From: Flavobacterium rhamnosiphilum
GTDB lineage: Bacteria > Bacteroidota > Bacteroidia > Flavobacteriales > Flavobacteriaceae
Length of the DNA: 64,000 bases
Reading direction: 5' to 3'
Assembly (NCBI RefSeq): GCF_004349195.1
Contig: NZ_SMLG01000011.1
Coordinates: 62,001-126,000, forward strand
Part shown: piece after piece, positions 1 to 28,571 of the stretch
Position numbering within the stretch: position 1 is the first letter of the stretch
Layout: every line of letters begins with the position of its first letter
Notes under the pieces: model-generated
Databases searched by the model: none
Seen by the model: only the letters and a program-made list of their open reading frames with translations
What the model was told of the DNA's origin: nothing
Translations under genes and position numbers: made by a program

Positions 1-1713
1 AGCTTTGATGTCTTTGATGTTCGAAGGATCTTGTGCGTGCCATCCCATGTCTAACAATCCAAAACTCAACTGGCGCATCGTTGCCATTCCTTCTTGAAAA
101 TTGGCACTTTCTTTTATTTTGTGAACTAATTCCATTGGAATCATTTCTCCAGTTTGATAATGATACGCAAATAAAGCTAAGGCTTCCGGTTCGTAGCACC
201 AGTTTTCTAAAATTTGACTTGGTAATTCCACAAAATCCCAATACACGGAAGTTCCGGATAAACTTGGATACGTTGTGTTGGCTAACATTCCGTGTAACGC
301 GTGACCAAATTCATGAAACAAAGTTGTTACTTCGTTAAAAGTTAATAAAGATGGTTTTGTTTCGGTAGGTTTCGTGAAATTGCATACAATAGAAATGTGC
401 GGTCTTTCGTTGATTTCTTTTTTTATGTATTGTGATTTAAAAGACGTCATCCAAGCACCGTTGCGTTTGCCTTTTCTTGGAAAGAAATCAGCATAAAAAA
501 CAGCAACAAGTTGGTCGTCTTCATCTTTTACTGCGTATGTTTTTACTTCTTCATGGTATTTATCGACTTCGAAAATTTCTTCGAAAGTGATTCCATATAG
601 TTTTTGCGCTACTGCAAAAGCACCGTCCAGAACTTTTTCTAATTGAAAATAAGGTTTTAATATTTCATCATCCAAATTGAATAATTGTTGTTTCAATTTT
701 TCCGAATAATATGCGCCGTCCCATTTTTCGAGTTGGTCAATTCCGTGTAACGCTGTTGCGAAAGCGGTCAATTGCGCAAATTCTTTCAAAGCTGCCGGTT
801 TGGCTTTTTCCAATAAGTCGTTCGAAAATGTTTTTACTTTCTCCGGGCTTTCTGCCATTCTTTCTTCAAGAACAAAATGAGCGTGAGTGGCATAACCTAA
901 AACTTGCGCTCGTTCAAAACGTAATTTTGCAATTTTCAGCACGATTTCCTGATTGTCAAATTCATTGTTTTGAAAACCTTTGGCGCCAAAAGCAATTGCC
1001 ATTTTCTTTCTCAATTCACGATTATCAGCATACGTCACAAACGGAACATAACTAGGATAATCCAATGTAAAAATCCAACCTTCTTTTTCTTGGCTTTTAG
1101 CCAAAGAATGAGAGGCTTCGATAGTTCCTTCCGGTAAGCCGGCTAAATCTTCTTTGTTTGTAATGTGCAATTGATACCCTTGCGTTTCAGCCAAAACATT
1201 TTCGCCAAACTGCAAACTCAATTTCGATAATTCTTTGTCGATTTCTCGTAATTGATTTTTTTTATCTTCCGGCAAATTGGCTCCGTTTCTGGAAAAACTT
1301 TTATATTTTTTATCCAAAAGCGTGGTTTGCTCCGGATTTAGATTCAGTTTTTCTCGTTGCTCATAAACTGTTTTTACTCTAGCAAATAAATCTGGATTAA
1401 GGCGAACGTCATTTCCAAATTCAGATAATAAAGGAGAAACTTCCTGAGCTATTTTTTGAATTTCATCATTTGTTTCTGCCGAATTCAAGTTGAAAAAGAT
1501 GCTTGAAATTCGGTCCAAAACATCTCCGCTGAACGCTAATGCTTCAATGGTGTTTTCGAAAGTGGGTTGTATAGGATTTCGTACAATGGCGTCAATTTCG
1601 GCTTTTGCTAATTCGATCCCTTTTTGAAAAGCAGGAAGAAAATCTTCGTTTTTAATTTTCGAAAAAGGCGCAGTATTGTACTTTGTATTGAAATGGTGGG
1701 TTAAGATGCTCAT
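1..1713 (-). CDS. M3 family metallopeptidase (peptidyl-dipeptidase Dcp / oligopeptidase A type), C-terminus cut by window edge
   Basis: This gene reads leftwards and runs off the window. The first 571 codons are present and open throughout; family members are about 680 residues, so roughly the last 100 are missing. The product is a zinc-dependent peptidase that trims oligopeptides. The zinc site HEFGH lies at residues 467-471, and a Glu near residue 496 in the FVELPSQ stretch is the expected third metal ligand. No signal peptide is visible at the start (MSILTHHFNT), so a cytoplasmic location is likely. The ATG at 1713 is the natural start and a TACATTTG promoter element lies about 40 bases upstream. 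Dcp and oligopeptidase A cannot be separated from this part alone. Confidence 0.93.
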   Translation of the reverse strand, partial: MSILTHHFNTKYNTAPFSKIKNEDFLPAFQKGIELAKAEIDAIVRNPIQPTFENTIEALAFSGDVLDRISSIFFNLNSAETNDEIQKIAQEVSPLLSEFGNDVRLNPDLFARVKTVYEQREKLNLNPEQTTLLDKKYKSFSRNGANLPEDKKNQLREIDKELSKLSLQFGENVLAETQGYQLHITNKEDLAGLPEGTIEASHSLAKSQEKEGWIFTLDYPSYVPFVTYADNRELRKKMAIAFGAKGFQNNEFDNQEIVLKIAKLRFERAQVLGYATHAHFVLEERMAESPEKVKTFSNDLLEKAKPAALKEFAQLTAFATALHGIDQLEKWDGAYYSEKLKQQLFNLDDEILKPYFQLEKVLDGAFAVAQKLYGITFEEIFEVDKYHEEVKTYAVKDEDDQLVAVFYADFFPRKGKRNGAWMTSFKSQYIKKEINERPHISIVCNFTKPTETKPSLLTFNEVTTLFHEFGHALHGMLANTTYPSLSGTSVYWDFVELPSQILENWCYEPEALALFAYHYQTGEMIPMELVHKIKESANFQEGMATMRQLSFGLLDMGWHAQDPSNIKDIKA

Positions 1714-1940: not shown

Positions 1941-2612
1941 ATGAACTATCAAATTACAATAAATAGAGTCAATACTGTAGATGAAATTGAAGAATATTGG
2001 ACAAATGAGGATTACATTAAACTGCTTGAAAAATTCGATTATCCGGATGCTTCCGATGCGGATGCTTCCAGTTTAAGAGAGTTGCTTTTTATGGCAATTT
2101 CTGATTTTGAACCCAAAGAGGCTGCCGTGATTGTATTAGAATATAAATTGTCAGAAGATTTGAATGAAGGTCAAATCCAACAAATATCAAACGATATGTT
2201 TTTGGATAAAGTGTGTGAAGAATATCCTGAGATAGGTTTGCATTCGACTTTATTTCATATCAATCAATTGCTTTTTAAAGCCTATAATGGTAAATTCCCG
2301 AACGCAAAAGCAACAATTATAGCGGTTACAATTGCACCATTAGAAAGTGAAAATGAGATGCAGTTGACCAAAGAGAATGTACTGAAATTATTAAGCAAAG
2401 GATTGTCTGATAGTAATCTTATTAAAAGACTGTTTGATAATGCGATGAATGAAAATGCGCCTTTTCCAGAAGCTGAGGATGTTTTATGGGATTTGACAAC
2501 TACGGATAATCTAAATTATACAATCACTACTTCGGAGTATTGGTTGAATAAAGAAGATATAATCGCTTCGGAATTTGAAGGGGTTTTAGAAATAGCAGAA
2601 AATGTGGAGTAA
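1941..2612 (+). CDS. hypothetical protein
   Basis: A 223-residue protein with no signal peptide or membrane segment, acidic overall. It is not recognised as a known domain family. It contains mixed helical stretches (for example FPNAKATIIAVTIAP, roughly residues 118-132) and ends EIAENVE. It begins at an ATG preceded by an A-rich stretch typical of this genome. It stands alone: the peptidase upstream is divergent and purE downstream is convergent, separated by a shared hairpin terminator. Codon use resembles its neighbours, so there is no sign of transfer. Confidence 0.75.
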   Translation: MNYQITINRVNTVDEIEEYWTNEDYIKLLEKFDYPDASDADASSLRELLFMAISDFEPKEAAVIVLEYKLSEDLNEGQIQQISNDMFLDKVCEEYPEIGLHSTLFHINQLLFKAYNGKFPNAKATIIAVTIAPLESENEMQLTKENVLKLLSKGLSDSNLIKRLFDNAMNENAPFPEAEDVLWDLTTTDNLNYTITTSEYWLNKEDIIASEFEGVLEIAENVE

Positions 2613-5954: not shown

Positions 5955-6182
5955 TGCTTTTTTTTGTCTTTTTTCGGGACTGTATCTCTGATTTTAATCA
6001 AATTTTTTAGAATCCTTTTTTGAATTTTAAAATAATAATAAGTTGATTGTCATGTGTTTAAAGTCAAAAGGTAAATTATGATCTACTTTGTTTTTAAGAA
6101 AAAACACGGTCTGTCCTAATGGGCTATTCAATCCTTTTTTTTCCTTTTATTTTTGCTTCCAAATAAATCTAAACAAACCAGT

Positions 6183-9100
6183 ATGAAATTAAAACTACTC
6201 TTTATTACGAGTGTCTTTTGTGTTTTTAATGCAATGAACGCTCAAAGTGGAGATCCCTCCGTTTTTGGCGATAATGTATGGAATGTATATGCCTATAATT
6301 CCACCGACAGTACTTTTCCTGTAAGTAATTATGCGGGATTTTACACAGAATCTAATTTGTCATTTGACACACAGGCAAGATGGAATCAGAATAATAGTCC
6401 ATCTGATGCCTCTGGTTATACAGGAAATGCTGTAGGTAATGACAACCATTCTTATGCCGCTAAACGCACAGGGTTTACTCCGGGGTATTATGCGATTGAT
6501 ATTCCTAGCCATGATGATGGTGCGTATTTATTTGTTAATGGTGTGCAAGTCTGGAATCATATCAGTTGCTGTGATAGTCATTCAGGTGTTTGGAAAGGTA
6601 CCCTTGACGGCGATTCTACCCTTGAATTTAGAGTAATGGATACTGGAGGAGGTGGGTCTCATGGCAGCATTAAAGTTGCTATGGTAACAATTAATGCAGT
6701 TGTTGCCCCCTTTTCGTCTTCTTCATGCGAAACAACCGTTACCATAACAGCTACCGGAGGAATGTCTCCATATACCGGGACTGGTGTATTTACTGTTAGT
6801 CCAGGAACCCACAATTATACCGTTTCTGATGATTCTGGAGCGACATCCAGCACCAGTGTTGAGGTTAAGGACGATAGTAAACCAACTGTTATTACTCAGA
6901 ATATAATAGTTAATTTGGATGCAAATGGTCAAGCGACTGTAACGCCAGCGATGATCAATTATAATTCGACGGACAATTGCGGTATCACAGGTATGAGTTT
7001 AGACAAAACGACTTTCACTTGCTCTGATATTGGGGATGTTTCTGCACAACCTGTGGCATTTACAAATGTAGGTGCCGCTTCTCAAAATATACATTCTTGG
7101 GGTGGTGGATACAATCCCAATACGAATGAATTTTGGTATCCAGCGTGGTCAGGGTCAACAATCTATAAATATGATGCTTCACATAATGCTACCGGAAGTT
7201 TTAATGCTCCAGTATCGCAGATTATGCAGTTGTGGATGGATAAATCAAGTTCGGATTATTACACGGCGAATTGGAGTTATAACACAATTAAGAGGATAAG
7301 CGGGAGTACTGTTGTTTGGTCCTATAATTTAGGCACAACAGCTTCGTCTGTGACCACTAGTGATTTGTACGTGTTTGCAACGAGCCCCTCTACAAATACT
7401 ATTGTCGTATTGGATAAAACTACCGGAGCTTTTGTGAAAAATATTAATCTACCGGGAACCATTAATACATATGGTGGTTTGGTGTATGCCAATGGGATTA
7501 TTTATGTTTCAGGTGTTGCTAATGGTGGTTTCTCAACTGTCCCTTATGCTTGGAATGCTATTCATGCGTTTGATGCCGGCACGGGCGCCTATATCAGCTC
7601 TGTCGCGACTGCTCAAAATTGTTTCAACACCGCTTTTGACGGAGAGACTATTTGGATATCTGATTCTAGCTCAGGTTCAATTACAATTAATGGGTATAAA
7701 ATTTCTAATGGAAATGTGAAGTTGACCGTTACGGATGCGGCCGGAAACACCGCTACAAAAACGGCAAAAGTAATAGTAAAAGACATTACGGCTCCTGTCA
7801 TTACTACCGATGGCGATAAAAATGTAACTACTGATTTGAATGTTTGCGGAGCAAGCGTAGTTGTTTCTGCATCTGCGACAGATAATTGTACTGTTGACGC
7901 ACCAACTGGCGTTCGAAGCGATGACTTGGCATTGGATGCAGTTTACCCAGTGGGAACCACAACGATTACTTGGAATACAAGTGATATTAATGGAAATGCA
8001 GCAGTTGATGTTGTGCAAACCGTTATCGTAACGGATAATCAACTTCCTGTGATTACTTTCAATGGAGATAAAAATGTAGATGTAGATGCAGATGTTTGCG
8101 GAGCAAGCGTACTTGTTTCTGCATCTGCCACAGATAATTGTACTCTTGGTGCATTAACAGGCGTTCGAAGTGATGCATTGGCATTGGATGCCCTTTATCC
8201 AATAGGAACTACAACTATTACTTGGAATGTATTAGATGTTAACAATAATGCAGGAGTCGAAGTTATCCAAACCGTTATCGTAACAGATAATCAACTTCCT
8301 GTGATTACTTTCAATGGAGATAAAAATGTAGATGTAGATGCAGATGTTTGCGGAGCAAGCGTACTTGTTTCTGCATCTGCCACAGATAATTGTACTCTTG
8401 GTGCATTAACAGGCGTTCGAAGTGATGCATTGGCATTGGATGCCCTTTATCCAATAGGAACTACAACTATTACTTGGAATGTATTAGATGTTAACAATAA
8501 TGCAGGAGTCGAAGTTATCCAAACCGTTATCGTAACAGATAATCAACTTCCTGTGATTACTTTCAATGGAGATAAAAATGTAGATGTAGATGCGGATGTT
8601 TGCGGAGCAAGCGTACTTGTTTCTGCATCTGCGACAGATAATTGTACTCTTGGAGCATTAACAGGCGTTCGAAGTGATGCATTGGCATTAGATGCCCTTT
8701 ATCCAATAGGAACTACAATTATTACTTGGAATGTATTAGATGTTAACAATAATGCAGCAGCTGAAGTTATCCAAACCGTTATCGTAACAGATAATCAACT
8801 TCCTGTGATTACTGCTAACGGAGATAAAAATGTTACTACTGATTTAAATGTTTGTGGAGCAACTGTAGTTGTTTCTGCATCTGCGACAGATAATTGTACT
8901 CTTGGTGCACTAACAGGCGTTCGAAGTGATGCATTGGCATTGAATGCCCTTTATCCAAAAGGAACCACAACAATCACTTGGAATGTAAGCGACGCTAATG
9001 GAAATGCGGCAGCGGCAGTAATTCAGAAAGTAACGGTAGTAGATGCGCAAAAGCCAACGATAACGACATTATCAGCAATAAATGTCAATGCAGATGCGGG

Positions 9101-10061
9101 AGTTTGTACGTACGCAAGTTCACAATTAACGGCACCGACAGCGGCAGATAATTGTAGTGTAAGGAGTGTTGTTGCTTCTCCGGCAAGTTTAGTGTCAGGG
9201 GCTAATACCGTTACTTGGACCGTAACCGATGGTTCAGGATTAACGGCTACTTCCACACAAACGGTAACTGTGGTTGACAATGAAGCTCCAATTGTTTTGA
9301 CAAAAAACATCCCGGTTCAATTGGATGCTTCTGGAAATGCATCGATAACGGCAGCTCAAATAAATAATGGATCAACTGATAATTGCGGAATTGCTTCAAT
9401 CAGTTTAAGTAAACTTACTTTTAGTTGTGCCAATGTAGGAGCTAATACGGTTATTCTGACTGTAAGAGATGTCAACGGTAATGTAGCAACGGCTTCTGCG
9501 GTGGTAATGGTTGTTAATACATTTGGTGACAATGATTCTGATGGAATCAAAGACAATTGTGATGATGACGACGACAATGATGGAGTATTAGACGGTAATG
9601 ACAACTGTTCTTTAATAGCGAATGCGAATCAAGCGGATAACGACCAAGATATTCTGGGTGATGTTTGTGATGATGATGATGACAATGATGGAATTCTAGA
9701 CACGGTAGATAACTGTCCGATGACTTACAATCCTAATCAGGAAGACCGTGATCATGATGGTCTGGGGGATCTTTGTGATTTGATCGAGGTTAATGTAGCT
9801 GAGGCAATGACTCCAAACGGAGATGGGGTTAACGATACTTGGGTTATTTACAATATCGAAAATCATCCTAACTCAATGGTGCGCGTTTTCAATCGTTGGG
9901 GAACAGAGGTGTTTTCGGCCAGAAACTACCAAAATGATTGGGATGGTCATAGCAAAAACAATAGCCAGCTGTTACCTGAAGGAAGTTCGTATTATTATCA
10001 AATAGATTTTGAAGGTGATGGAACTATCGATAAAGAAGGTTGGATATACATAAACAGATAG
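6183..10061 (+). CDS. large HYR-repeat surface protein with type B type IX secretion (CHU_C) sorting domain
   Basis: A 1292-residue exported protein. The start is the ATG giving MKLKLLFITSVFC; a TTG ten codons upstream would spoil the signal peptide. Order: signal peptide 1-20; a lectin/PA14-like region to about 180; an Ig-like module interrupted by a propeller-like stretch at 286-511 (FWYPAWSGSTIYKYD, IIYVSGVANGG); five 84-residue HYR repeats at about 537-956; two more Ig-like modules; Asp-rich thrombospondin-type-3 calcium repeats at about 1114-1200; and a C-terminal CHU_C gliding-type domain (MTPNGDGVNDTWVI, VFNRWGTEVF). CHU_C domains direct type IX secretion. The PorP/SprF-like gene follows after 24 bases, probably in one operon. 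The likely role is adhesion or a surface filament; the ligand is unknown. Confidence 0.92.
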   Translation: MKLKLLFITSVFCVFNAMNAQSGDPSVFGDNVWNVYAYNSTDSTFPVSNYAGFYTESNLSFDTQARWNQNNSPSDASGYTGNAVGNDNHSYAAKRTGFTPGYYAIDIPSHDDGAYLFVNGVQVWNHISCCDSHSGVWKGTLDGDSTLEFRVMDTGGGGSHGSIKVAMVTINAVVAPFSSSSCETTVTITATGGMSPYTGTGVFTVSPGTHNYTVSDDSGATSSTSVEVKDDSKPTVITQNIIVNLDANGQATVTPAMINYNSTDNCGITGMSLDKTTFTCSDIGDVSAQPVAFTNVGAASQNIHSWGGGYNPNTNEFWYPAWSGSTIYKYDASHNATGSFNAPVSQIMQLWMDKSSSDYYTANWSYNTIKRISGSTVVWSYNLGTTASSVTTSDLYVFATSPSTNTIVVLDKTTGAFVKNINLPGTINTYGGLVYANGIIYVSGVANGGFSTVPYAWNAIHAFDAGTGAYISSVATAQNCFNTAFDGETIWISDSSSGSITINGYKISNGNVKLTVTDAAGNTATKTAKVIVKDITAPVITTDGDKNVTTDLNVCGASVVVSASATDNCTVDAPTGVRSDDLALDAVYPVGTTTITWNTSDINGNAAVDVVQTVIVTDNQLPVITFNGDKNVDVDADVCGASVLVSASATDNCTLGALTGVRSDALALDALYPIGTTTITWNVLDVNNNAGVEVIQTVIVTDNQLPVITFNGDKNVDVDADVCGASVLVSASATDNCTLGALTGVRSDALALDALYPIGTTTITWNVLDVNNNAGVEVIQTVIVTDNQLPVITFNGDKNVDVDADVCGASVLVSASATDNCTLGALTGVRSDALALDALYPIGTTIITWNVLDVNNNAAAEVIQTVIVTDNQLPVITANGDKNVTTDLNVCGATVVVSASATDNCTLGALTGVRSDALALNALYPKGTTTITWNVSDANGNAAAAVIQKVTVVDAQKPTITTLSAINVNADAGVCTYASSQLTAPTAADNCSVRSVVASPASLVSGANTVTWTVTDGSGLTATSTQTVTVVDNEAPIVLTKNIPVQLDASGNASITAAQINNGSTDNCGIASISLSKLTFSCANVGANTVILTVRDVNGNVATASAVVMVVNTFGDNDSDGIKDNCDDDDDNDGVLDGNDNCSLIANANQADNDQDILGDVCDDDDDNDGILDTVDNCPMTYNPNQEDRDHDGLGDLCDLIEVNVAEAMTPNGDGVNDTWVIYNIENHPNSMVRVFNRWGTEVFSARNYQNDWDGHSKNNSQLLPEGSSYYYQIDFEGDGTIDKEGWIYINR
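7791..9050 (+). repeat. five tandem 252-bp repeats encoding HYR modules
   Basis: Unit starts fall at 7791, 8043, 8295, 8547 and 8799, exactly 252 bases (84 codons) apart. Units two (8043-8294) and three (8295-8546) appear identical base for base. Unit four differs at a handful of positions. The first and fifth are more diverged (NVTTDLNVCGA instead of NVDVDADVCGA). This is coding repeat DNA inside the surface protein gene. Confidence 0.95.
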
Positions 10062-14524: not shown

Positions 14525-15526
14525 ATGACTGAAGGGAATTTTGTAGATTACGTAAAAATATATGTTTCTTCCGGAAAAGGAGGAAAAGGATCTACGCATT
14601 TGCATAGAGAAAAATTTATTGAAAAAGGTGGACCAGATGGAGGAGATGGTGGTCGTGGAGGACATGTTTATCTTGTAGGAAACAAAGGGCTTTGGACATT
14701 ATTTCACCTTAAATTTGCGCGTCATATTAAAGCCGGGAATGGTGGAGATGGAAGTGGTGACAGAAGTACTGGTGCTGATGGTGATGATAAATACATCGAA
14801 GTTCCGCTAGGTACTGTTGTAAAAGATAAAGAAACTGGAGAAATATTATTTGAAATTACCGAAGATGGTGAAAAACAAGTACTTTCTCGTGGAGGAAAAG
14901 GTGGTTTAGGAAACTGGCATTTTAGAAGTTCAACCAATCAAACACCTAGATATTCACAGCCTGGATTACCTGGCTCAGAAATGGATGTGATTTTAGAACT
15001 AAAAGTGCTTGCGGATGTAGGTTTAGTAGGTTTTCCTAACGCAGGAAAATCAACGCTATTGTCAGTATTGACTTCGGCTAAACCAAAAATTGCAGATTAT
15101 CCTTTTACAACTTTAAAACCAAATCTTGGAATTGTAGCGTACAGAGATTTTCAATCTTTTGTAATTGCCGATATTCCCGGAATTATAGAAGGAGCTGCCG
15201 AAGGAAAAGGATTAGGACATTATTTCTTGCGTCATATTGAACGTAATTCAACGTTGCTTTTTCTAGTTCCTGTTGATACTCCGGACATCAAAGCGGAATA
15301 TGATATTTTGGTAAACGAATTGACAAAATACAATCCGGAAATGCTCGACAAAGAACGTTTGTTGGTCATTTCAAAATGCGATATGCTTGATGATGAATTA
15401 AAAGCTGAGCTAAAAGTAGAATTAGACGTTGCTTTCAAAGACATTCCTTATATGTTTATTTCATCTGTTGCGCAACAAGGTTTGACGGAATTGAAAGATA
15501 AATTATGGAAAATGTTGAATGATTAA
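14525..15526 (+). CDS. obgE: GTPase Obg/CgtA
   Basis: A 333-residue GTPase that works in 50S ribosome assembly and stress control. The N-terminal glycine-rich Obg fold spans about residues 1-160 ([33 protein letters not shown]). The G domain follows, with G1 GFPNAGKST near 169, switch motif DYPFTT, G3 DIPGIIEGA near 215, and SKCD as the base-recognition motif. It lacks the variable C-terminal extension of some homologues, which is usual in this phylum. The upstream gap holds short tandem ATCTGAA repeats. Confidence 0.97.
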
Positions 15527-15550
15527 TTCTTAATTTTCTAAATAAATTAT

Positions 15551-15586
15551 AAAAGCCGTCTCGTATTATATATGAGACGGCTTTTT
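15551..15586. terminator. bidirectional intrinsic terminator between obgE and the macroglobulin gene
   Basis: AAAGCCGTCTC pairs with GAGACGGCTTT around an AT loop, with A-rich and T-rich flanks on either side. It serves both convergent genes. Confidence 0.85.
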
Positions 15587-15593
15587 AGTTCTA

Positions 15594-15851
15594 TTACTCT
15601 GTAGTCTTCACTCGAATTCCTTTGGTATGACTCGTGAATTCAGGAGCATACATACTCTGAATAGTCGAAATCCCATTAGAGAAATCTCCAGTGTTATTTA
15701 CCCGAATGTCATATTCTAAAACATAAGTTCCTTTGTTTATCTGATCAAAAAAGAAGTGTGTCGCAGCATCTTTTGTACTGCTGTAAAAACTCAACCCGCC
15801 TTTGTATTTGTATTCTGATAGTACATTTACGGGTTCAAAACAGGAAGCGCG
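15594..15851 (-). pseudogene. detached C-terminal part of the alpha-2-macroglobulin-like gene, out of frame
   Basis: The 85 codons read RASCFEPVNVLSEYKYKGG, continue through YDIRVNNTGDFSNGIST and MYAPEF, and end at a stop at 15594. From family knowledge this is the conserved C-terminal end that normally follows HLKDM in Bacteroidota macroglobulins. It is in a different frame from the upstream part. The junction is at 15851-15854, where AAA-GA is followed directly by CGC-GCT; about four bases (one expected ATG codon plus one) appear missing. It has no convincing start of its own. It could be a sequencing error, a true mutation, or a site of recoding. Confidence 0.8.
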
Positions 15852-18800
15852 TCTTTGAGATGAATAAATTCCATGTTTTCTTTTGCCGCAATAATCAATC
15901 GTACGGTTACTAAATCACCAATTTTTAGCGGATTTGTAGGTGCTATTTTTTGAAGTTCATCGCCTTTGTCAGTGCTTTTCTTTACATACAATTCCTTAGA
16001 AACGGATAAAACAGATTCTGAATTGGTTTTGATTTTATCCAAATATTCAAAATATTGCCAATAAACACCGCCAAAACCTGGAACTTTCGATTTGTTTTCT
16101 ATGATAATTGTTGCCATTTCTTTTTTAATTTCATTTGGTTTCCAGTTTAGTTTTAGGTAACCCGTCTCGGCTTCTTTTTCATTTTCAGATAGCTTTTTTG
16201 TCACTATTTTTTCATCTCCTATTCTGATTACGGTATTGTCTTTCACGCTCAACCAATCGCTGCCCTGCATCAGTAAAGCGTAAACGGCCTCGGTGGTCGC
16301 TTTTGTAGTAGGCCAGTTTTTAGTTTGTTTGTTTTTTAACAACCAAACTTTCATGGCATCCACTGATTTCGTGTCTGAATCGATTTCAGCGAAAGCTTCA
16401 ATAAGTAACGATTGAGTTTCTATTGGGGCCTGATGCCAATACCAACCTGCTTTATTGGTAATCCAATACATACCCCAATCTTCATTGTTGGAGGCTGTTT
16501 CTTTTAAACTTATCAGAATTTTTTTGGCTGCAGCCGATTCTCCAAAACGGTGTAAAGTCAATGCGGCCAATCCTTTTTCGTAAAGAGAATAAGACAACCA
16601 ATTTTCTTTTGCAGTTTCTAAATAACGTTGCGTAACTTTTTTTAACGTATCCGTAAGTGGATAATTTTCTAAATAAAAGCTTCGGGTATAAAAATAATGC
16701 AGGTCAGAGTTTGGATTCGGCCAAATTATTTTTTCTAAATTTGCTCCGTTTTCAATTGTTTTTTTATGATTTTCTAGAAATTTTCGATCCAGGAATGGAA
16801 TTCCTTTTTTTGAGATTTCGGCTATTTTGTCTGTAGTGTTTTTGCTTTTATTAAGTTTAGCCAAATGACCCAAACCTGCCAAGATATGTCTGGTAATGTA
16901 TTCGTTTTCGTCACTTCCATCAAACCAAGGGAATCCTCCCGAAGCATTTTGCTTTTGTTTTAACTTCTTGAAAGTAGCTTCCTGTGCATTTTTCATTTTT
17001 TCTAAATCAAAAAGCAATGCTAGATTTTTCTTCTTTTCGTCTTCACTTTGGGCATCATTCAGCCAAGGTGTTTCGGCAAGGATTATCGATTTTAATTCCT
17101 CGTTTTCTTCCAGTTTGGAGTTTAATTTTCCGTTTGTTCTCCATGTTTCAAAAACCGTGGCGATTTTTGGATTACTCGAAATAATTTCTGAAGCCAAAGC
17201 ATTGGCATAAAAGCGCGCAAAAGTTTGTTCGGCACATTCGTGTTCGTATTCCATTAAATACGGTAACGATTGTATTGCAATCCACGAAGGATTCGAAGTG
17301 TATTCCAATGTGAATTGATGATTGCGTAACGTAGTGGAAGAATTATTCTTTAAATTGTCAAAAGTATATTCTTTTTTGGTGTTTTCTCGAACCCAAATTG
17401 GAATACTTTCCGTTACCAAAATGTTGTTCGTTAAAACGGGTAAAATATTTTCTTCTCCATCCGAATAGTTGCCGGATTTGGCTGAAATTTTATATTGAAT
17501 ACCTTGTAAACCTTCAGGAATTGTAATGGTCCAACTTGCGGTTGTGTTTCCAAGAGCGCCTACGGTAAAGTTCTTGACGTTTTTTACATTCAAGGTTTTT
17601 ATATCTATAGCTTCCATTGTTGTTGCATCAAACAGTTGTAAGACAGCAATTCCTGTTTTGGCTTCGTTCGTAATATTTGAAATTTTTGTAGCGATAACAA
17701 TCGTATCTTTTTCTCTGAAAAAGCGAGGGAAATTAGGAAGAATCATAAGTTCCTTTTGAGTGGCAATACTTTTTTCCAAATAACCGGTAACAGTCTCTTT
17801 ATTATGAGCCAACAATCGAAGTTTCCAGGCCGTTAATGCTTCCGGCGAAGTAAAACTAAAACTCACTTTTCCTTTTGAATCTGTTTTTAGATTCGGATAA
17901 AAGAAAGCGGTTTCAGATAAATTTTTTCTGGCTTTTACTTGCGTTAATGCTTCAAGGGCTTTTTTGGTTGTGATAATGATGACGCCATTTGCTCCTTTGT
18001 TTCCGTATAAAGCCGTGGCTTTGTCGCCTTTTATAACATCAACAGAAATAATATCTGAAGGAGAAATTAATTTCATTTGCTCTACCGTTATTGGTACACC
18101 ATCAACTATATATAATGCGTTTGTGTAATTCCCTGAAATACTTGAGTTTCCTCTAATTGTAATACCACCCGCTTTCCCCTCTAATTTTATATCTATTCCT
18201 GCAGTATTGTAAATTTGATTATCTGCTTCTTCAAGAACTATTGGTACAGCCGCAGTTAAATATTTCTTTTTTACACTCCCATACCCCACAACAACTACTT
18301 CTTCTAAACTATTACCAGATTCCTCTAACTGAACATCTATTGTAGTAGAGTTAACTGTAATTTTTTTGGTTTCAGATCCAATATGAGAGAAACTTAATTC
18401 TTCTCCAAGAGCAGCTTCTATTTGATAATAGCCATCAAAATCAGTTTGAGTGCTACGTTGAATTCCATTTACACTAACATTTACGCCAGTAAATGGCTCT
18501 TCTCCGTAGAAAACAATTCCTGAAATCATTTTTGCATTCAGCGGTTTTTTACTTTTATTGTTTAGCTGTTTTTGATATTCTTTTAGTTGCTGTGTCGTGA
18601 AAGAATCATTGAAGTTGAATCCAAACCACATTAATTGGGTGTTTTCATCATTAAGTTCGATTCGATTTAAAATTGGATTCAGATTTCGGATAGAATTGTA
18701 TGTTTTATCAAACCCTAAACTTGTTTTGAAGTTCGGAGAGTTATAATTGTAATCATTGAATGTCAATCTACTCCAATCTCTCTTGGTAAACTGATCTAGA

Positions 18801-21800
18801 GAACTGTCATACATGGAGGCCAAAACTTCGGCTTCTTTTGTAGTGTTAGATGTTTTTAATTGAAACGACCAATTTTCAGTGCTTCCGGGTTGTATTTTGT
18901 TTCTGAAACTTTCTACGGTAAATTCTAATTCGGGTTCTTCGACTTTGAGAAGTACTTCTATTTCATCGTTAAAAGTTTGATTTTCAAATACACTTTCAAA
19001 ACCAATTTTTATTCTTTTTTCAAATTCTTTTTTTAGCGGAATTTTTACAATAGCTTCATTATTTTGTAAGTGAAAAGTATTCTCAAAATAAAGGAAACTT
19101 TGGTAATTTCCGGTAGCGTTGATGTAAAGTTCAGGAATAACCGAAGTTAATTTTACTAAAACAAAACCATCTTTTTTAGCATCAATATTGATTTGTTCTG
19201 TGACAAATAATTTACTCGAATCGATTTTGTCTTTGCTCTGTATCAATTGAAAATTAGAAATGGTTTCAATTGGATTTTCAAAAGCGTCTTTGGAGGAAAA
19301 GACTACCTTGTAGTTCCCCGATTTGTACTTGGAAATGAAATCCAAAACTAATTTTTTGTCTTTTTCAGTATCTATTTTTTTAGAAAAAACCAGAGTTTCA
19401 GTTGGTTTTACAACATTTGGTTTCTCGTTGTCTTCGTAAGGGAACAATCGCTCAAAATCTTCTTTTGAAATGGTTTCTATTTCTGGTTGTTGAAAAACTC
19501 TAGATTTGAATTTGTTCGAAAAAGGACTTACATAGTAGAGTTTGATTTCGCCTTTAGTGGCTAAAAATTCTCCATTCAGATTGGTGCTTGTCAGTGTAAT
19601 TTCATTTCTATTTTTTGTTTCAATTCGGCGCGGAATAGTGGTGGAAAGTGTCAAAGAATGGTAACCAATCCTTACAGTTGTTTGGGTTTGGTGCGTTTCG
19701 CCATTAATGTCGGTAACGGAGGCTATGATACGGTATTCAAAAACGGGTAAATGTTCTTTAGTCGCATTTTCAAAAGGTTTGGCAATGAAATTTATTTCGA
19801 ATTTTCCCGAAGAATCCGTTTTGGTTTCGCCAACTAAAATATTTTCTGATTTGCCGTTTTGGTTGTAATAGTAGCCGTTGTTTAATGTGTAAGGTATGAG
19901 TATGACTTTGTATTCTACTTTTGCATCGGAAATGTTGCTTCCTGCAAAAGCTTTAGCCAGTCCGGTAATATTGACATTTTGGTTGACGTGATACGCTTTT
20001 TTTACAGGCTCAAAGCTTACTTCAAATTTCGGGCGTTTGTATTCTTCAACTCTAAAAGATATTTCAGAATTGTCATAATTTACATTGTCCCAAAAAGGGT
20101 GTTCGTCTTTTGTTTTGACAAAAATAAAATCTTTTTCATTATCATCGGGTTCATCAGCTGTTATTCTAAAATTTCCTGTCAATTCACTTTTAGGGAGCAT
20201 AAATTCTCCGGAAAATGAGCCGTATTCATTTGTAACCGCATCAAATTCTTTGAAAATAGTACCATTTGGGTCTTGAATTGTAATTTTGAAAGTAGTTTTT
20301 GCAACAACACTCGTTTTGTCTTGTTCTTTACGAAAAGCAACGCCTTTGTAGTAAACCGTTTGTCCCGGGCGATAAATGGCGCGGTCTAAATAAAATTCGA
20401 CTTTGCCTTTAGCTTTCTTGTTTTCTATAGTCGCGTAATCATTATAATAATAGGAGTAACGATTGTTTAGTAGCAGAGAATCGTTTTCTGTTGTAAATTC
20501 AATAAGGCTATAATTGCGGTTGTTATTTTCTTTGAGATACTTTGCTGCGCCGTTTTTGCCGGTTATAATGGTTTGATTTAATAATTCTATCGAAACATCT
20601 TCTAAAGGTTTTCCAGTTTTTCTGTCTAACACCTGATAAATTCCTTTCTTATCGTTTTCTGAAGCTAGAACAGTGATATTTGAAATTGTAATGGTTTCGT
20701 AAGCAAATGCTTTTGTGTTTTTGATATCTGAATCACTTTCAAAATATACTAAATAACTGCCTGTTTTTAATTGCGGTAAAAGTACTTCAGTGCTATATTC
20801 AAAATAATTTTTTTTGTCTTGCAGTTCATAGTTTTTTGAAGCAATTGCTTTTTTGTTTTTAATAATTGCTGTTACTAAACTGTCTTTGTTATAAGGGGAA
20901 TTTCGGAAGTCTTTTGTCGTGTTTTGATCGATTTTGAAGAAAGAAATCGAAAGGTGAGTTAAGTTTTTGTATTGAACAAAAGCTCTTGTGTTTTCATCGG
21001 TATAACTGAATTTTTGAAGTTGAATATTTAGTGATTTTGAACTAATATTTTGTTTCTTTTGTAATGCCAGTTTGTGTGCATTAGAACGGTTGTTCATACT
21101 GATAATACTGTCAAGTGTTGCAATAGCTTGAATGTTGTAATCAGGATGTGTTTCTTTTGAGGCTTGCGCGTTCAGAATAATCGCTTTTTCCAATTGAATG
21201 TTTTGGGTCAAAATAATGTCTTTGGATTCTTTTTGGAGAAGATTTAATGACTTCATAAAAGCATCATTGGACTCAAGCAAATTGGTACTGCAAAATTGAA
21301 TTCTGTCGAATTGGTTTTCTAAATCAGGAGTGTTGATTTCCTGTTTTTGATACAATTCAAGCACTTTTTTTAGTTTTTCATTTTTGACAAAATCAAAATT
21401 TAGTTTTAAAAAGAATTCTGATTTTCCTAAAAGTTCTTTTTCATAGGGTAAGAATTCCTTTTTTTGAATTTCCCATTGCTTAATCTGCGGAGTATGTAAC
21501 GCAATGTTTTCTTTTAGTAAATAGTTAAATAGATTATATTTTTTTATTTTTTCTTCATCAATAAAATCGAAAATAGGAAGGTAATTGCTCAATGATGTTT
21601 CTTTTAATATCGCTTCGTTTAGTATTGTCTTCTCTAAAGCGCTATTTATCTGGTCCAAAAAGTCTTTCGAAGTCCAAGTTAAAAATTCATCATCAAAACT
21701 TACAGTATTGGTTCTGTTGTATATTAAATAGGAATTTTGCTTTTGATAATCGATCAAACATTTCGCATAAACCAAATTCAAAATTGCTTTTGAAGGAACA

Positions 21801-22078
21801 GAGGCTCGATTAATTTTCGTTTTTAAATTGTTTATGATTTTGGTTTGTGCATTTTCGTCAACCACTTGCAAATATTTTGACTCATAAAAAAAGCACTTGA
21901 TGATTTGTACTTCATTTTTATCACGAACTGCTTTTTGATGTATTCTAGAAACAACTTCGTTGGCTGATTTTATTTTTCCATTATTTTCATATTCAATTAC
22001 TTTGATCCAGTTTTTATCATATTGTTGCGCAAATAGGGAAGTAGAAATAAAAAAAAGTACTAAAAAAATAGGTCTCAT
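15827..22078 (-). CDS. alpha-2-macroglobulin family protein with inserted carboxypeptidase-like regulatory and TonB-plug domains (truncated by frameshift)
   Basis: A 2083-codon gene with a signal peptide (MRPIFLVLFFISTSLFAQQ). Domains in order: a helical N-terminal region; an MG2-type region around residue 560 (YLDRAIYRPGQTVYYKG); further MG domains; a carboxypeptidase-regulatory-like fold about 1184-1260 (ISGIVFYGEEPFTGVNVSVN); a SusC-type plug about 1262-1376 (EEVVVVGYGSV, LYIVDGVPI, LYGNKGANGVIIITTKK); the A2M core starting near 1390 (FYPNLKTDSKGKVSFSF); and a thioester-like ECAEQ with Cys 1615 and an alpha-alpha barrel. Bacterial macroglobulins trap proteases at the cell envelope. The reading frame stops at ALPVLNP; the true family C-terminus continues in another frame just downstream. 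Confidence 0.88.
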   Translation of the reverse strand: MRPIFLVLFFISTSLFAQQYDKNWIKVIEYENNGKIKSANEVVSRIHQKAVRDKNEVQIIKCFFYESKYLQVVDENAQTKIINNLKTKINRASVPSKAILNLVYAKCLIDYQKQNSYLIYNRTNTVSFDDEFLTWTSKDFLDQINSALEKTILNEAILKETSLSNYLPIFDFIDEEKIKKYNLFNYLLKENIALHTPQIKQWEIQKKEFLPYEKELLGKSEFFLKLNFDFVKNEKLKKVLELYQKQEINTPDLENQFDRIQFCSTNLLESNDAFMKSLNLLQKESKDIILTQNIQLEKAIILNAQASKETHPDYNIQAIATLDSIISMNNRSNAHKLALQKKQNISSKSLNIQLQKFSYTDENTRAFVQYKNLTHLSISFFKIDQNTTKDFRNSPYNKDSLVTAIIKNKKAIASKNYELQDKKNYFEYSTEVLLPQLKTGSYLVYFESDSDIKNTKAFAYETITISNITVLASENDKKGIYQVLDRKTGKPLEDVSIELLNQTIITGKNGAAKYLKENNNRNYSLIEFTTENDSLLLNNRYSYYYNDYATIENKKAKGKVEFYLDRAIYRPGQTVYYKGVAFRKEQDKTSVVAKTTFKITIQDPNGTIFKEFDAVTNEYGSFSGEFMLPKSELTGNFRITADEPDDNEKDFIFVKTKDEHPFWDNVNYDNSEISFRVEEYKRPKFEVSFEPVKKAYHVNQNVNITGLAKAFAGSNISDAKVEYKVILIPYTLNNGYYYNQNGKSENILVGETKTDSSGKFEINFIAKPFENATKEHLPVFEYRIIASVTDINGETHQTQTTVRIGYHSLTLSTTIPRRIETKNRNEITLTSTNLNGEFLATKGEIKLYYVSPFSNKFKSRVFQQPEIETISKEDFERLFPYEDNEKPNVVKPTETLVFSKKIDTEKDKKLVLDFISKYKSGNYKVVFSSKDAFENPIETISNFQLIQSKDKIDSSKLFVTEQINIDAKKDGFVLVKLTSVIPELYINATGNYQSFLYFENTFHLQNNEAIVKIPLKKEFEKRIKIGFESVFENQTFNDEIEVLLKVEEPELEFTVESFRNKIQPGSTENWSFQLKTSNTTKEAEVLASMYDSSLDQFTKRDWSRLTFNDYNYNSPNFKTSLGFDKTYNSIRNLNPILNRIELNDENTQLMWFGFNFNDSFTTQQLKEYQKQLNNKSKKPLNAKMISGIVFYGEEPFTGVNVSVNGIQRSTQTDFDGYYQIEAALGEELSFSHIGSETKKITVNSTTIDVQLEESGNSLEEVVVVGYGSVKKKYLTAAVPIVLEEADNQIYNTAGIDIKLEGKAGGITIRGNSSISGNYTNALYIVDGVPITVEQMKLISPSDIISVDVIKGDKATALYGNKGANGVIIITTKKALEALTQVKARKNLSETAFFYPNLKTDSKGKVSFSFTSPEALTAWKLRLLAHNKETVTGYLEKSIATQKELMILPNFPRFFREKDTIVIATKISNITNEAKTGIAVLQLFDATTMEAIDIKTLNVKNVKNFTVGALGNTTASWTITIPEGLQGIQYKISAKSGNYSDGEENILPVLTNNILVTESIPIWVRENTKKEYTFDNLKNNSSTTLRNHQFTLEYTSNPSWIAIQSLPYLMEYEHECAEQTFARFYANALASEIISSNPKIATVFETWRTNGKLNSKLEENEELKSIILAETPWLNDAQSEDEKKKNLALLFDLEKMKNAQEATFKKLKQKQNASGGFPWFDGSDENEYITRHILAGLGHLAKLNKSKNTTDKIAEISKKGIPFLDRKFLENHKKTIENGANLEKIIWPNPNSDLHYFYTRSFYLENYPLTDTLKKVTQRYLETAKENWLSYSLYEKGLAALTLHRFGESAAAKKILISLKETASNNEDWGMYWITNKAGWYWHQAPIETQSLLIEAFAEIDSDTKSVDAMKVWLLKNKQTKNWPTTKATTEAVYALLMQGSDWLSVKDNTVIRIGDEKIVTKKLSENEKEAETGYLKLNWKPNEIKKEMATIIIENKSKVPGFGGVYWQYFEYLDKIKTNSESVLSVSKELYVKKSTDKGDELQKIAPTNPLKIGDLVTVRLIIAAKENMEFIHLKDALPVLNP

Positions 22079-24316: not shown

Positions 24317-24775
24317 ATGAATGGCGCTATGAAAATTTCTAAAACTACGAGTGAAAATCCAGATTTTGTCAATCTCATTGCTGCACTAGATAAAAGTTTG
24401 TGGGAGCGTTATCCGGAATTAAAAACAAATTATTGGGGTAATAATATTTTGGAATTAAATCCGAATGTTGTTATTATTTATTTGGAGGACAAAGCAGTGG
24501 CTTGTGGTTGTTTTAAAAAATACGATAAAAATGCAATTGAAATAAAGCGTATGTTTGTTTCTCCTGAAGCTCGAGGAATGGGCTTAGCTCAAAATATTTT
24601 ACGTGAATTAGAACTTTGGGCACATGATTTAGGGTATTCGTTTTCTGTTTTGGAAACATTACACAAACAAAAGGAAGCCATCGCTTTATACGAAAAAGCG
24701 GGATATAGTATAGTTGAAAATTACGAGCCTTATGTGGGTTTAGAAAATAGTATTTGCATGCGGAAACAAATTTAA
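24317..24775 (+). CDS. GNAT family N-acetyltransferase
   Basis: A 152-residue acyltransferase that would move an acetyl group from acetyl-CoA to an amine; the substrate is unknown. The core beta4-alpha3 region EIKRMFVSPEARGMGLAQNI (about residues 74-93) contains the CoA pyrophosphate loop. ETLHKQKEAIALYEKAGY is the typical C-terminal helix and strand. A second ATG four codons in (MKISKTTS) is an equally plausible start. It lies 7 bases after mpl and 12 bases before radC, so it is probably cotranscribed. Confidence 0.88.
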   Translation: MNGAMKISKTTSENPDFVNLIAALDKSLWERYPELKTNYWGNNILELNPNVVIIYLEDKAVACGCFKKYDKNAIEIKRMFVSPEARGMGLAQNILRELELWAHDLGYSFSVLETLHKQKEAIALYEKAGYSIVENYEPYVGLENSICMRKQI

Positions 24776-24787
24776 AGAACAAAAAGA

Positions 24788-25483
24788 ATGGCTGAAAACT
24801 CCTTTTTTCCTATAACGAATTGGTCCGAAGATGATAAGCCACGTGAAAAACTAATGCTGAAAGGCAAAAGTGTTTTAAGTGACGCAGAATTGATTGCCAT
24901 TTTGATAGGTTCAGGAAGCAGAAACGAATCAGCGGTTGATTTGAGTAAAAGGATTTTAGCAAGCGTAGAGAATAATTTGAATGCGTTAGGGAAATTGTCC
25001 ATTTCACAATTAATGAATTTCAAAGGAATAGGGGAGGCGAAAGCAATTTCCATTATTGCTGCTTTAGAATTAGGAAGACGAAGAAGGGCAGAAGATGCAG
25101 TGGAGTTAAAGAAAGTTACTTCCAGTAAAATAATTTTCGAAATCATGCAACCTATTATTGGGGAATTGCCACACGAGGAATTTTGGATTATTTACATGAA
25201 TAATTCGAATAAGGTGATTTCGAAATCCCAGTTGAGTAAAGGCGGAATCACCGGAACTTTAGTAGATGTTCGCATCGTTTTCAAGACGGCACTTGAAATG
25301 GGTGCGACAGGATTAATTCTGTGTCATAATCATCCTTCGGGAACTTTGATTCCAAGTGATGCAGACAAACAGATTACAAAAAAATTAAAATTGGCAGGCG
25401 ATAGTTTAGAAATAAAAGTTTTAGATCATTTGATTGTGACTGAAAAGAACTATTTTAGTTTTGTTGATGAAGGAATATTTTAA
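24788..25483 (+). CDS. radC: RadC family JAB-domain protein
   Basis: A 231-residue protein of the RadC (UPF0758) family. An N-terminal helix-hairpin-helix-like region (SQLMNFKGIGEAKAISIIAA) precedes a JAB metalloprotease-like domain with the zinc motif HNHPSG near residue 180 and an Asp downstream (IPSDADKQ). Despite the name, a role in DNA repair is not proven; the biochemical function is uncertain. Full length, with no mobile-element context: its neighbours are housekeeping genes. Confidence 0.95.
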   Translation: MAENSFFPITNWSEDDKPREKLMLKGKSVLSDAELIAILIGSGSRNESAVDLSKRILASVENNLNALGKLSISQLMNFKGIGEAKAISIIAALELGRRRRAEDAVELKKVTSSKIIFEIMQPIIGELPHEEFWIIYMNNSNKVISKSQLSKGGITGTLVDVRIVFKTALEMGATGLILCHNHPSGTLIPSDADKQITKKLKLAGDSLEIKVLDHLIVTEKNYFSFVDEGIF

Positions 25484-27022: not shown

Positions 27023-28300
27023 TTAATACCCGTATTTATCTTTCCAACGGTTTTTTAGAAATTCCCTAATGCTATTTTCTCTGGAGTTGTTTCCTGGAGT
27101 ATATATTGGTGTCTTGCTTAATGCTTCAGGTAAAAATTCTTGTTCAGCAAAATTATTGGTATAATCGTGTGAATATTTGTATTCTTCACCATAGCCTAAT
27201 TCTTTCATTAATTTTGTTGGTGCATTGCGTAAGTGAATAGGAACCGGTAAATCCCCCGTTTGTTTCACAAGTTGTTGAGCCGTTCCAATTGCTAAATAAG
27301 AAGCGTTACTCTTTGGAGAAGTTGCGAGGTAAACGGCGCACTGGCTCAAAATAATTCTACTTTCAGGATATCCAATTGTAGCAACAGCCTGAAAAGTATT
27401 ATTAGCCATGATAAAAGCAGTTGGATTAGCATTTCCTATATCTTCACTACTTAGAATAAGCATGCGTCGAGCAATAAACTTTACATCTTCACCGCCTTCA
27501 ATCATTCGGGCTAGCCAATATACAGCACCATTAGGATCACTTCCCCGAATTGATTTTATAAAAGCAGAAACTATGTCATAATGTTGTTCGCCAGTTTTGT
27601 CATACAAAACGGTATTTTGCTGCACCAAAGCGAAAACACGATCATTAGTGATTAAAATTTCGTCTTCATTAGACGCATTTACAACAAGTTCAAAAATATT
27701 TAATAGTTTGCGTCCGTCACCGCCGGAAAGTCTTAGTAGGGCTTCTGTTTCGCTTAAAATAATATTTTTTGTAGACAAATAAGTGTCCGTCTTCATAGCG
27801 CGTTCCAGCAGAGATTCCAAATCTTGTTTGGTAAAAGCATTCAAAATATAAACCTGACAACGGGATAGTAATGCAGGAATAACTTCAAAACTGGGATTTT
27901 CTGTAGTGGCGCCAATAAGTGTAATCCAACCTTTTTCTACTGCTGCCAGCAGGGAATCTTGTTGTGATTTGCTGAAACGATGAATCTCATCGATGAATAA
28001 AATAGGATTTTTAGCAGTAAATAAACCACCGCTTTGCTTCGCTTTTTCAATCACGTCACGAATATCTTTGACACCCGAATTGATGGCACTCAAAATATAA
28101 AATGGTCGTTTTGATTCTTGTGCAATAATTTGTGCCAAAGTTGTTTTTCCTGTTCCGGGTGGTCCCCAAAAAATTAATGACGGAATAATTCCTTTTGCAA
28201 TTTGTTGCGTCAATGAGCCATTTGGCCCTACGAGATGGGATTGACTGATGTAGTCTTCTAATTTTTGTGGTCGTATGCGTTCTGCAAGTGGTGCTTCCAT
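27023..28300 (-). CDS. rarA: replication-associated recombination protein A (RarA/MgsA), AAA+ ATPase
   Basis: A 425-residue clamp-loader-like ATPase acting at stalled replication forks. Walker A is GPPGTGKTT at about residues 46-54 and Walker B is [10 protein letters not shown] near 100. Sensor 1 is [10 protein letters not shown]. The C-terminal tetramerisation domain contains [19 protein letters not shown] and [10 protein letters not shown]. The N-terminal [22 protein letters not shown] is diagnostic. Full length. It is convergent with the upstream plus-strand run and preceded by a spacer carrying ATCTGAA repeats and a dispersed element. Confidence 0.97.
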
Positions 28301-28378
28301 TTATTTTTTAAATCTGAAATCTGAATTCGTTAATCATAAATCAAAAATATAACTCTGGTAAAATTACTATTTTTATTT

Positions 28379-28463
28379 GGAGCTATTTCCAGCAGTACAC
28401 TATATCTTTTATATCTCGTTGAAAAAACGAGATATAAAAGGATACCGTTTCCATCTGGGCTAA
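28379..28463. repeat. dispersed intergenic repeat element, copy B
   Basis: It opens with GGAGCTATTTCCAGCAGTAC and closes with CCATCTGGGCTAA, matching both ends of the element at 12946-13088. The core is a hairpin with a 13-base perfect stem (CTTTTATATCTCG at 28406-28418 with its complement at 28428-28440), extended by TATC/GGATA with one bulge. Confidence 0.75.
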
Positions 28464-28571
28464 GCATTCGTTAAAAAAAAACATTTTTAGTTTAAATATG
28501 ACAAAATAGCATTAAATTGCTTTTGGAGAAGTTTTTGAATTAAGACTAGAACATAAAACTTCACGCTATTC

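Follow-up and report, generated by a model that had tools for sequence, protein, structure and literature searches.

A probable recent four-base deletion splits the last domain of the only alpha-2-macroglobulin gene of a Flavobacterium rhamnosiphilum genome

Among described systems the closest parallels to the gene considered here are the bacterial alpha-2-macroglobulins (A2Ms), namely the type I proteins, represented by Salmonella SaA2M and E. coli ECAM/YfhM, and the type II proteins such as Pseudomonas MagD. Type II A2Ms are described in one source as lacking the thioester cysteine (PMC5764988). For the Salmonella protein, two residues of the C-terminal MG domain (CTMG), Met1625 and Tyr1626, are described as belonging to the pocket that maintains the thioester (PMC4498604). 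A further point of reference is the ordinary bacterial pseudogene that carries a small frameshift.

The gene at 15827-22078 (minus strand) of the window, by which we mean the whole stretch of 64,000 nucleotides analyzed here, had been assigned to the macroglobulin family from its sequence, and Pfam matches to the MG2, A2M and bMG10 models place it in the A2M family (Table 1). The MG2 and A2M domains, together with a CxEQ motif in the form of CAEQ at residues 1615-1618, are features of the type I A2Ms. A SusC/RagA-like module directly precedes the A2M domain, and Plug and/or CarbopepD_reg was recovered in all eight relatives scanned, in one of them as Plug alone, below the Pfam cut-off. This spot just before the A2M domain is presumably the position occupied by the bait region in other macroglobulins. 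No paper on this A2M architecture was recognizable by title among the literature matches listed. In a whole-genome domain search bMG10 occurs only once in this organism, as the two pieces described below, and a protein search of the whole genome detected no second macroglobulin. The 22 other protein matches to the A2M in this genome are all confined to residues 1167-1405, i.e. the plug module and its surroundings, and belong to open frames of 929-1175 codons, as expected of SusC-type receptors. No second A2M copy that might compensate was detected. Seven ORFs near the gene match HGPRTase, adenylate kinase, a CNNM/GldE-like protein, ObgE, a TPR protein, a Mur-ligase-like protein and RadC. Elsewhere in the window (6153-10061, plus strand) lies a large protein with near-identical repeated units, recognized by eye, of the DNCTLGALTGVRSDALALDALYP type.

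The main frame runs to ...HLKDALPVLNP and then TAA, and bMG10, the last Pfam domain of the gene, is divided between this frame and the -1 frame at the junction. The tail frame comprises 85 sense codons (15851-15597) and a stop (15596-15594), and is open back to 15914, so that the two frames overlap by 88 nt, the main-frame stop counted in. The original prediction, that a frameshift separates the conserved C-terminus from a giant macroglobulin gene whose main frame stops at ALPVLNP, with an 85-residue tail from 15851 to 15594 in another frame, thus holds in its essentials and in its coordinates. The rest of the 2083-codon frame, which it had described as intact, is indeed open throughout. A terminator-like hairpin is found just past the tail stop, between the A2M gene and the convergent obgE.

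Table 1. Features of the A2M gene and its surroundings (window coordinates; residues of the main frame).
Feature	Window position	Residues	Strand	Basis and remarks
A2M-family main frame, 2083 aa	15827..22078		-	ORF and translation; last 7 residues ALPVLNP outside the family frame
MG2		562-648	-	Pfam, E 1.1e-17
SusC/RagA-like CarbopepD_reg (CarbopepD_reg_2) + TonB Plug module	17915..18526	1185-1388	-	Pfam; SusC model below curated cut-off
A2M domain		1390-1475	-	Pfam, E 6.3e-15
CAEQ thioester-type motif	17225..17236	1615-1618	-	Retained in the window
Partial bMG10		2024-2079	-	Pfam, profile 2-52
Junction, site of four-base deficit relative to relatives	15851..15852		-	Comparison with relative loci
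Orphaned C-terminal part of bMG10, 85 codons + stop	15594..15851		-	-1 frame; Pfam, E 2.3e-19, profile 51-131
Met-Tyr of SMYAPE in the lost tail	15648..15653		-	Likely match of CTMG Met1625-Tyr1626 of Salmonella A2M, by motif and place in domain
Terminator-like hairpin	15551..15585		listed on +, nearly symmetric	1 found against 0.3 expected in shuffles

The junction was compared with 109 relative loci, of which 29 came from a draw of 299 genus genomes (172 with a match; 30 loci when the window's own is included) and 80 were named loci (the best 80 of 148) obtained by scanning species genomes. Entries that represent the window's own locus (L001-L003, L113 and L151) were excluded from these counts. 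The 109 include duplicate genomes, and 94 distinct sequences besides the window remain once identical DNA is removed. A further 45 non-own loci derive largely from genomes already in the 109, and among them L181-L187 were chosen for copies that look broken elsewhere. All 109 relatives read through the junction in one frame, as do the 45 further loci (partly duplicates of the 109), which gives 154/154 for two sets that share genomes, and a frame break at this point is common to none of them (0/154). Up to the first R of the tail the 109 relatives display HLKDM (91), HLKDL (12), YLKDM (3), HLKGM, QLKDL or HLKDA (1 each); the position before this R is occupied by M in 95 loci, by L in 13 and by A in one, and is in every case in frame with the preceding HLKD/YLKD/QLKD/HLKG. 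In the window GA is followed directly by CGC, four bases fewer than in the relatives, in agreement with the suggestion that about four bases were lost between GA and CGC. Alignment with these orthologues further shows that all 109 carry after the junction, in one frame, the normal family ending that the tail had been thought to resemble. The tail frame is not a product of chance, because its protein identity is 81-89% to the eight relatives used in the dN/dS test below and 62-90% to all 109. A natural gene end at the stop seen in the window, which the original prediction had named as one of the findings that would overturn it, is rejected, as all 154 non-own loci read on past this point. To judge by the assembled sequences, the frame break is confined to this genome among the loci examined, and within this sample the gene does not naturally end here. 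No strain of the same species was present in two overlapping genus draws (299 and 398 genomes) or in a draw of 60 relatives, and even the nearest relative in these draws is only ~80-81% identical in DNA along most of the query.

These observations are probably best understood as a recent four-base deletion in the lineage of this strain, which hit the last domain of its only A2M-family gene and produced what is in effect a loss-of-function allele. Provided that the DNA is correct as assembled, such a deletion would shift the frame inside the last domain (MG10, another name for CTMG), translation would end seven foreign residues later, and the protein would fall short of the family form by roughly 86 C-terminal residues. 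The extent of this damage can be gauged from an AlphaFold2 model of the C-terminal 786 residues of the intact Flavobacterium xueshanense homologue (mean pLDDT 71, pTM 0.66), in which the junction leaves four strands of the last domain (residue 648 on) on its N-terminal side and eight on its C-terminal side. The two best PDB matches of this model in Foldseek are the Salmonella A2M structures 4u4j and 4u48 (E-values 1.1e-23 and 3.6e-23; TM-scores by query 0.47 and 0.49). Loss of most strands of the domain would be expected to prevent the C-terminal beta-sandwich from forming. The lost tail also includes the motif SMYAPE, in which the Tyr is conserved in 109/109 relatives and the Met in 108/109, and this Met-Tyr pair is probably the counterpart of Met1625-Tyr1626 of SaA2M, the thioester shield. 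The equivalence is drawn from the motif and its place in the domain: a PDB search with the single C-terminal sequence gave no match, and one with a profile gave weak matches, the best with an E-value of 0.039 to YfhM, and among the alignments listed none extended into MG10. With the residues that probably cover the thioester gone, the protein may be misfolded, degraded or lose its thioester by hydrolysis. It is thus likely to be non-functional or unstable, although part of its function might survive the loss of the last half domain.

The age of the break was approached through the constraint on the tail. Between the window and eight relatives the tail dN/dS is 0.046-0.132, much like the 0.054-0.146 seen among six relatives (15 pairs), these single ratios being rough as several tail dS values lie above 1, close to saturation. 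The gene body gives 0.105-0.127 between the window and seven relatives. No stop has been gained within the 85 tail codons, and in 82 of them the window has three residues of its own, with 1-5 such residues in each of seven relatives. By rough arithmetic, the body dS of 0.77 to the nearest relative amounts to about 0.38 per lineage, and an unconstrained tail would have been expected to accumulate ~77 changes at its ~200 nonsynonymous sites over that branch, against the three seen. This suggests that the break took place within about the last tenth of the branch since the split from the nearest sampled relative, a rough bound in that window-only residues do not equal all changes. As the tail keeps the purifying selection of the family, the break is either recent or a sequence error, and the unrelaxed tail fits a sequence error equally well as a very young mutation.

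A sequencing or assembly error, whereby the gene would be intact in the organism and four bases lost from the consensus, has accordingly to be weighed. A tail with constraint indistinguishable from that of the relatives is what it predicts, the gene's frame is otherwise unbroken, and the assembly is a draft of 37 contigs, with an estimated completeness of 99.98%. However, the region 15500-16300 is not repeated in full anywhere else in the genome, and no homopolymer in the frame overlap is longer than 4. For a short-read consensus a clean four-base loss would also not be the usual error, which we count against this explanation. Moreover, a scan for split frames, in which the window was compared with four relatives, flagged the A2M gene in all four and brought up only two other pairs. 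Both lie on minus-strand frames other than those of the genes listed there and are judged spurious: that at 28071-28476 does not share the frame of the gene 27023-28300, and that at 24627-25191 spans the plus-strand genes 24317-24775 and 24788-25483 (radC). Since only the A2M gene is convincingly split, nothing points to general frame errors in the window, a judgement that covers the 38 of its 46 ORFs of at least 150 aa that have a counterpart in the four relatives. We therefore favor a true mutation over a sequence error, which we regard as unlikely.

The distribution of the gene in the genus provides a context for such a mutation. A C-terminal A2M match is present in 55 of 150 genus genomes, including that of the window, and broken or remnant copies, with stops, frame changes or only remnants, occur in at least 8 of the 54 other carriers in this sample. 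G105, G096, G059, G131 (one of two copies), G054, G142 and G113 were checked at the locus level, and G149, an incomplete genome of 450 contigs, was scored from the genome scan alone, as were the remaining carriers, by its open-frame and stop columns. G034, with only A2M fragments in a 60% complete genome, was left unjudged. Some of these broken copies may be assembly errors too. Among the named loci, 76 of 80 have an open frame of at least 1990 codons; the exceptions are L065 (cut by a contig end), L091 (a run of N), L040 (an in-frame stop) and L056 (positions 1-950), the A2M of Flavobacterium sp. I-STPP5a, which is apparently interrupted around codon 421 by an IS1595-type transposase lying at the start of the contig. 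In two genomes only a C-terminal remnant is left at the searched place (L186 3073-3405 and L187 2535-2939, with alignments of 117 and 137 residues). The gene is thus often dispensable in the genus, and a broken copy is not surprising. Separately, two neighboring A2M copies were observed in each of two genomes (G139:C1:276928-285427 and G345:C1:453476-461871). The recent inactivation or shortening already considered in the original prediction is accordingly the reading that we favor, on the basis of the tail constraint and of the breakage in other members of the genus, and the window most likely holds an ordinary recent loss-of-function allele of a gene of known family that the genus often breaks.

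A different line of thought starts from the thioester itself. Nine of the 109 relative loci (L005, L008, L009, L020, L034, L047, L058, L083 and L088), which represent six distinct genomes, have Ser or Gly in place of its Cys, and the Tyr of the last domain is kept in them. On the tree five of these genomes group together (SH-aLRT 95), apart from the sixth (ACAM 123), pointing to two separate losses, a count that excludes L103, a row not fitting the motif pattern. Several of the named species concerned are, we assume, cold-adapted. It is conceivable that the A2M of this group is leaving the thioester trap by several routes, and that the body, in which a SusC-like plug occupies the bait position, retains another, still selected function which the truncated protein is able to perform; we hold this to be quite improbable. 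A view of the truncated protein as an adaptive short form that still functions, in a lineage abandoning the thioester mechanism, could be argued from the same replacements, with their two losses on the tree and a gene body still under constraint, but the window itself retains CAEQ, the Cys-less genomes retain the full tail and its Tyr, the cut falls inside the beta-sandwich of the F. xueshanense model, and the truncation at this point occurs in one genome only, so that we give it very little credence. Programmed -1 frameshifting or slippage, joining both frames into a full protein, is scarcely believable: the constrained tail, the hairpin after it and the 88-nt overlap might speak for it, but 154/154 non-own loci are single-frame and have no need of such a mechanism, the overlap contains no slippery heptamer (X_XXY_YYZ) and no run longer than 4, the RNA downstream is not unusually stable (z-score -0.99; 29/200 shuffles fold at least as well), and no Rfam family matches the region at gathering score. 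The unusual decoding that had been entertained for this gene thus finds no support at the sequence level. Re-initiation in the tail frame is rejected because its only starts (TTG 15794, ATG 15653 and GTG 15611) all lie within the tail and would have no signal peptide ahead, and phase variation by a tandem repeat is likewise rejected, the site by eye being without a tract apart from a short CG alternation.

The frame break is thereby settled as being, most likely, a routine break of a gene that happened recently, and it drops out as a candidate for unusual decoding. By-products of some use are a sample of the absence and breakage of this giant gene in the genus, the replacement of the thioester Cys within one group of relatives, and the plug-like module before the A2M domain.

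Compared with the known systems, the window gene has MG2, A2M, CxEQ and bMG10 in common with the type I A2Ms, and SaA2M is the best fold match of the F. xueshanense C-terminal model, the TM-scores of 0.47-0.49 indicating a domain arrangement that is only partly matched. Unlike the type I proteins, it has a SusC-like plug module before the A2M domain; it lacks a lipobox, as there is no Cys in its first residues; and its last domain is broken, which leaves it without a complete C-terminal MG domain bearing the shielding Tyr. No pbpC lies beside it, since the seven nearby ORFs, including both immediate neighbors, do not match the PbpC model; BiPBP_C, taken as the marker of PBP1C, is absent from the genome in the domain search and present in two control genomes. 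The genomes of six relatives resemble the type II proteins (MagD) in being without the thioester Cys, whereas the window keeps CAEQ, and the seven nearby ORFs, from which this was judged, do not suggest a mag operon. No notable difference separates the window gene from the ordinary small-frameshift pseudogenes of bacteria, with which it shares a single small deficit, an open remainder, relatives that are in frame and breaks in other species.
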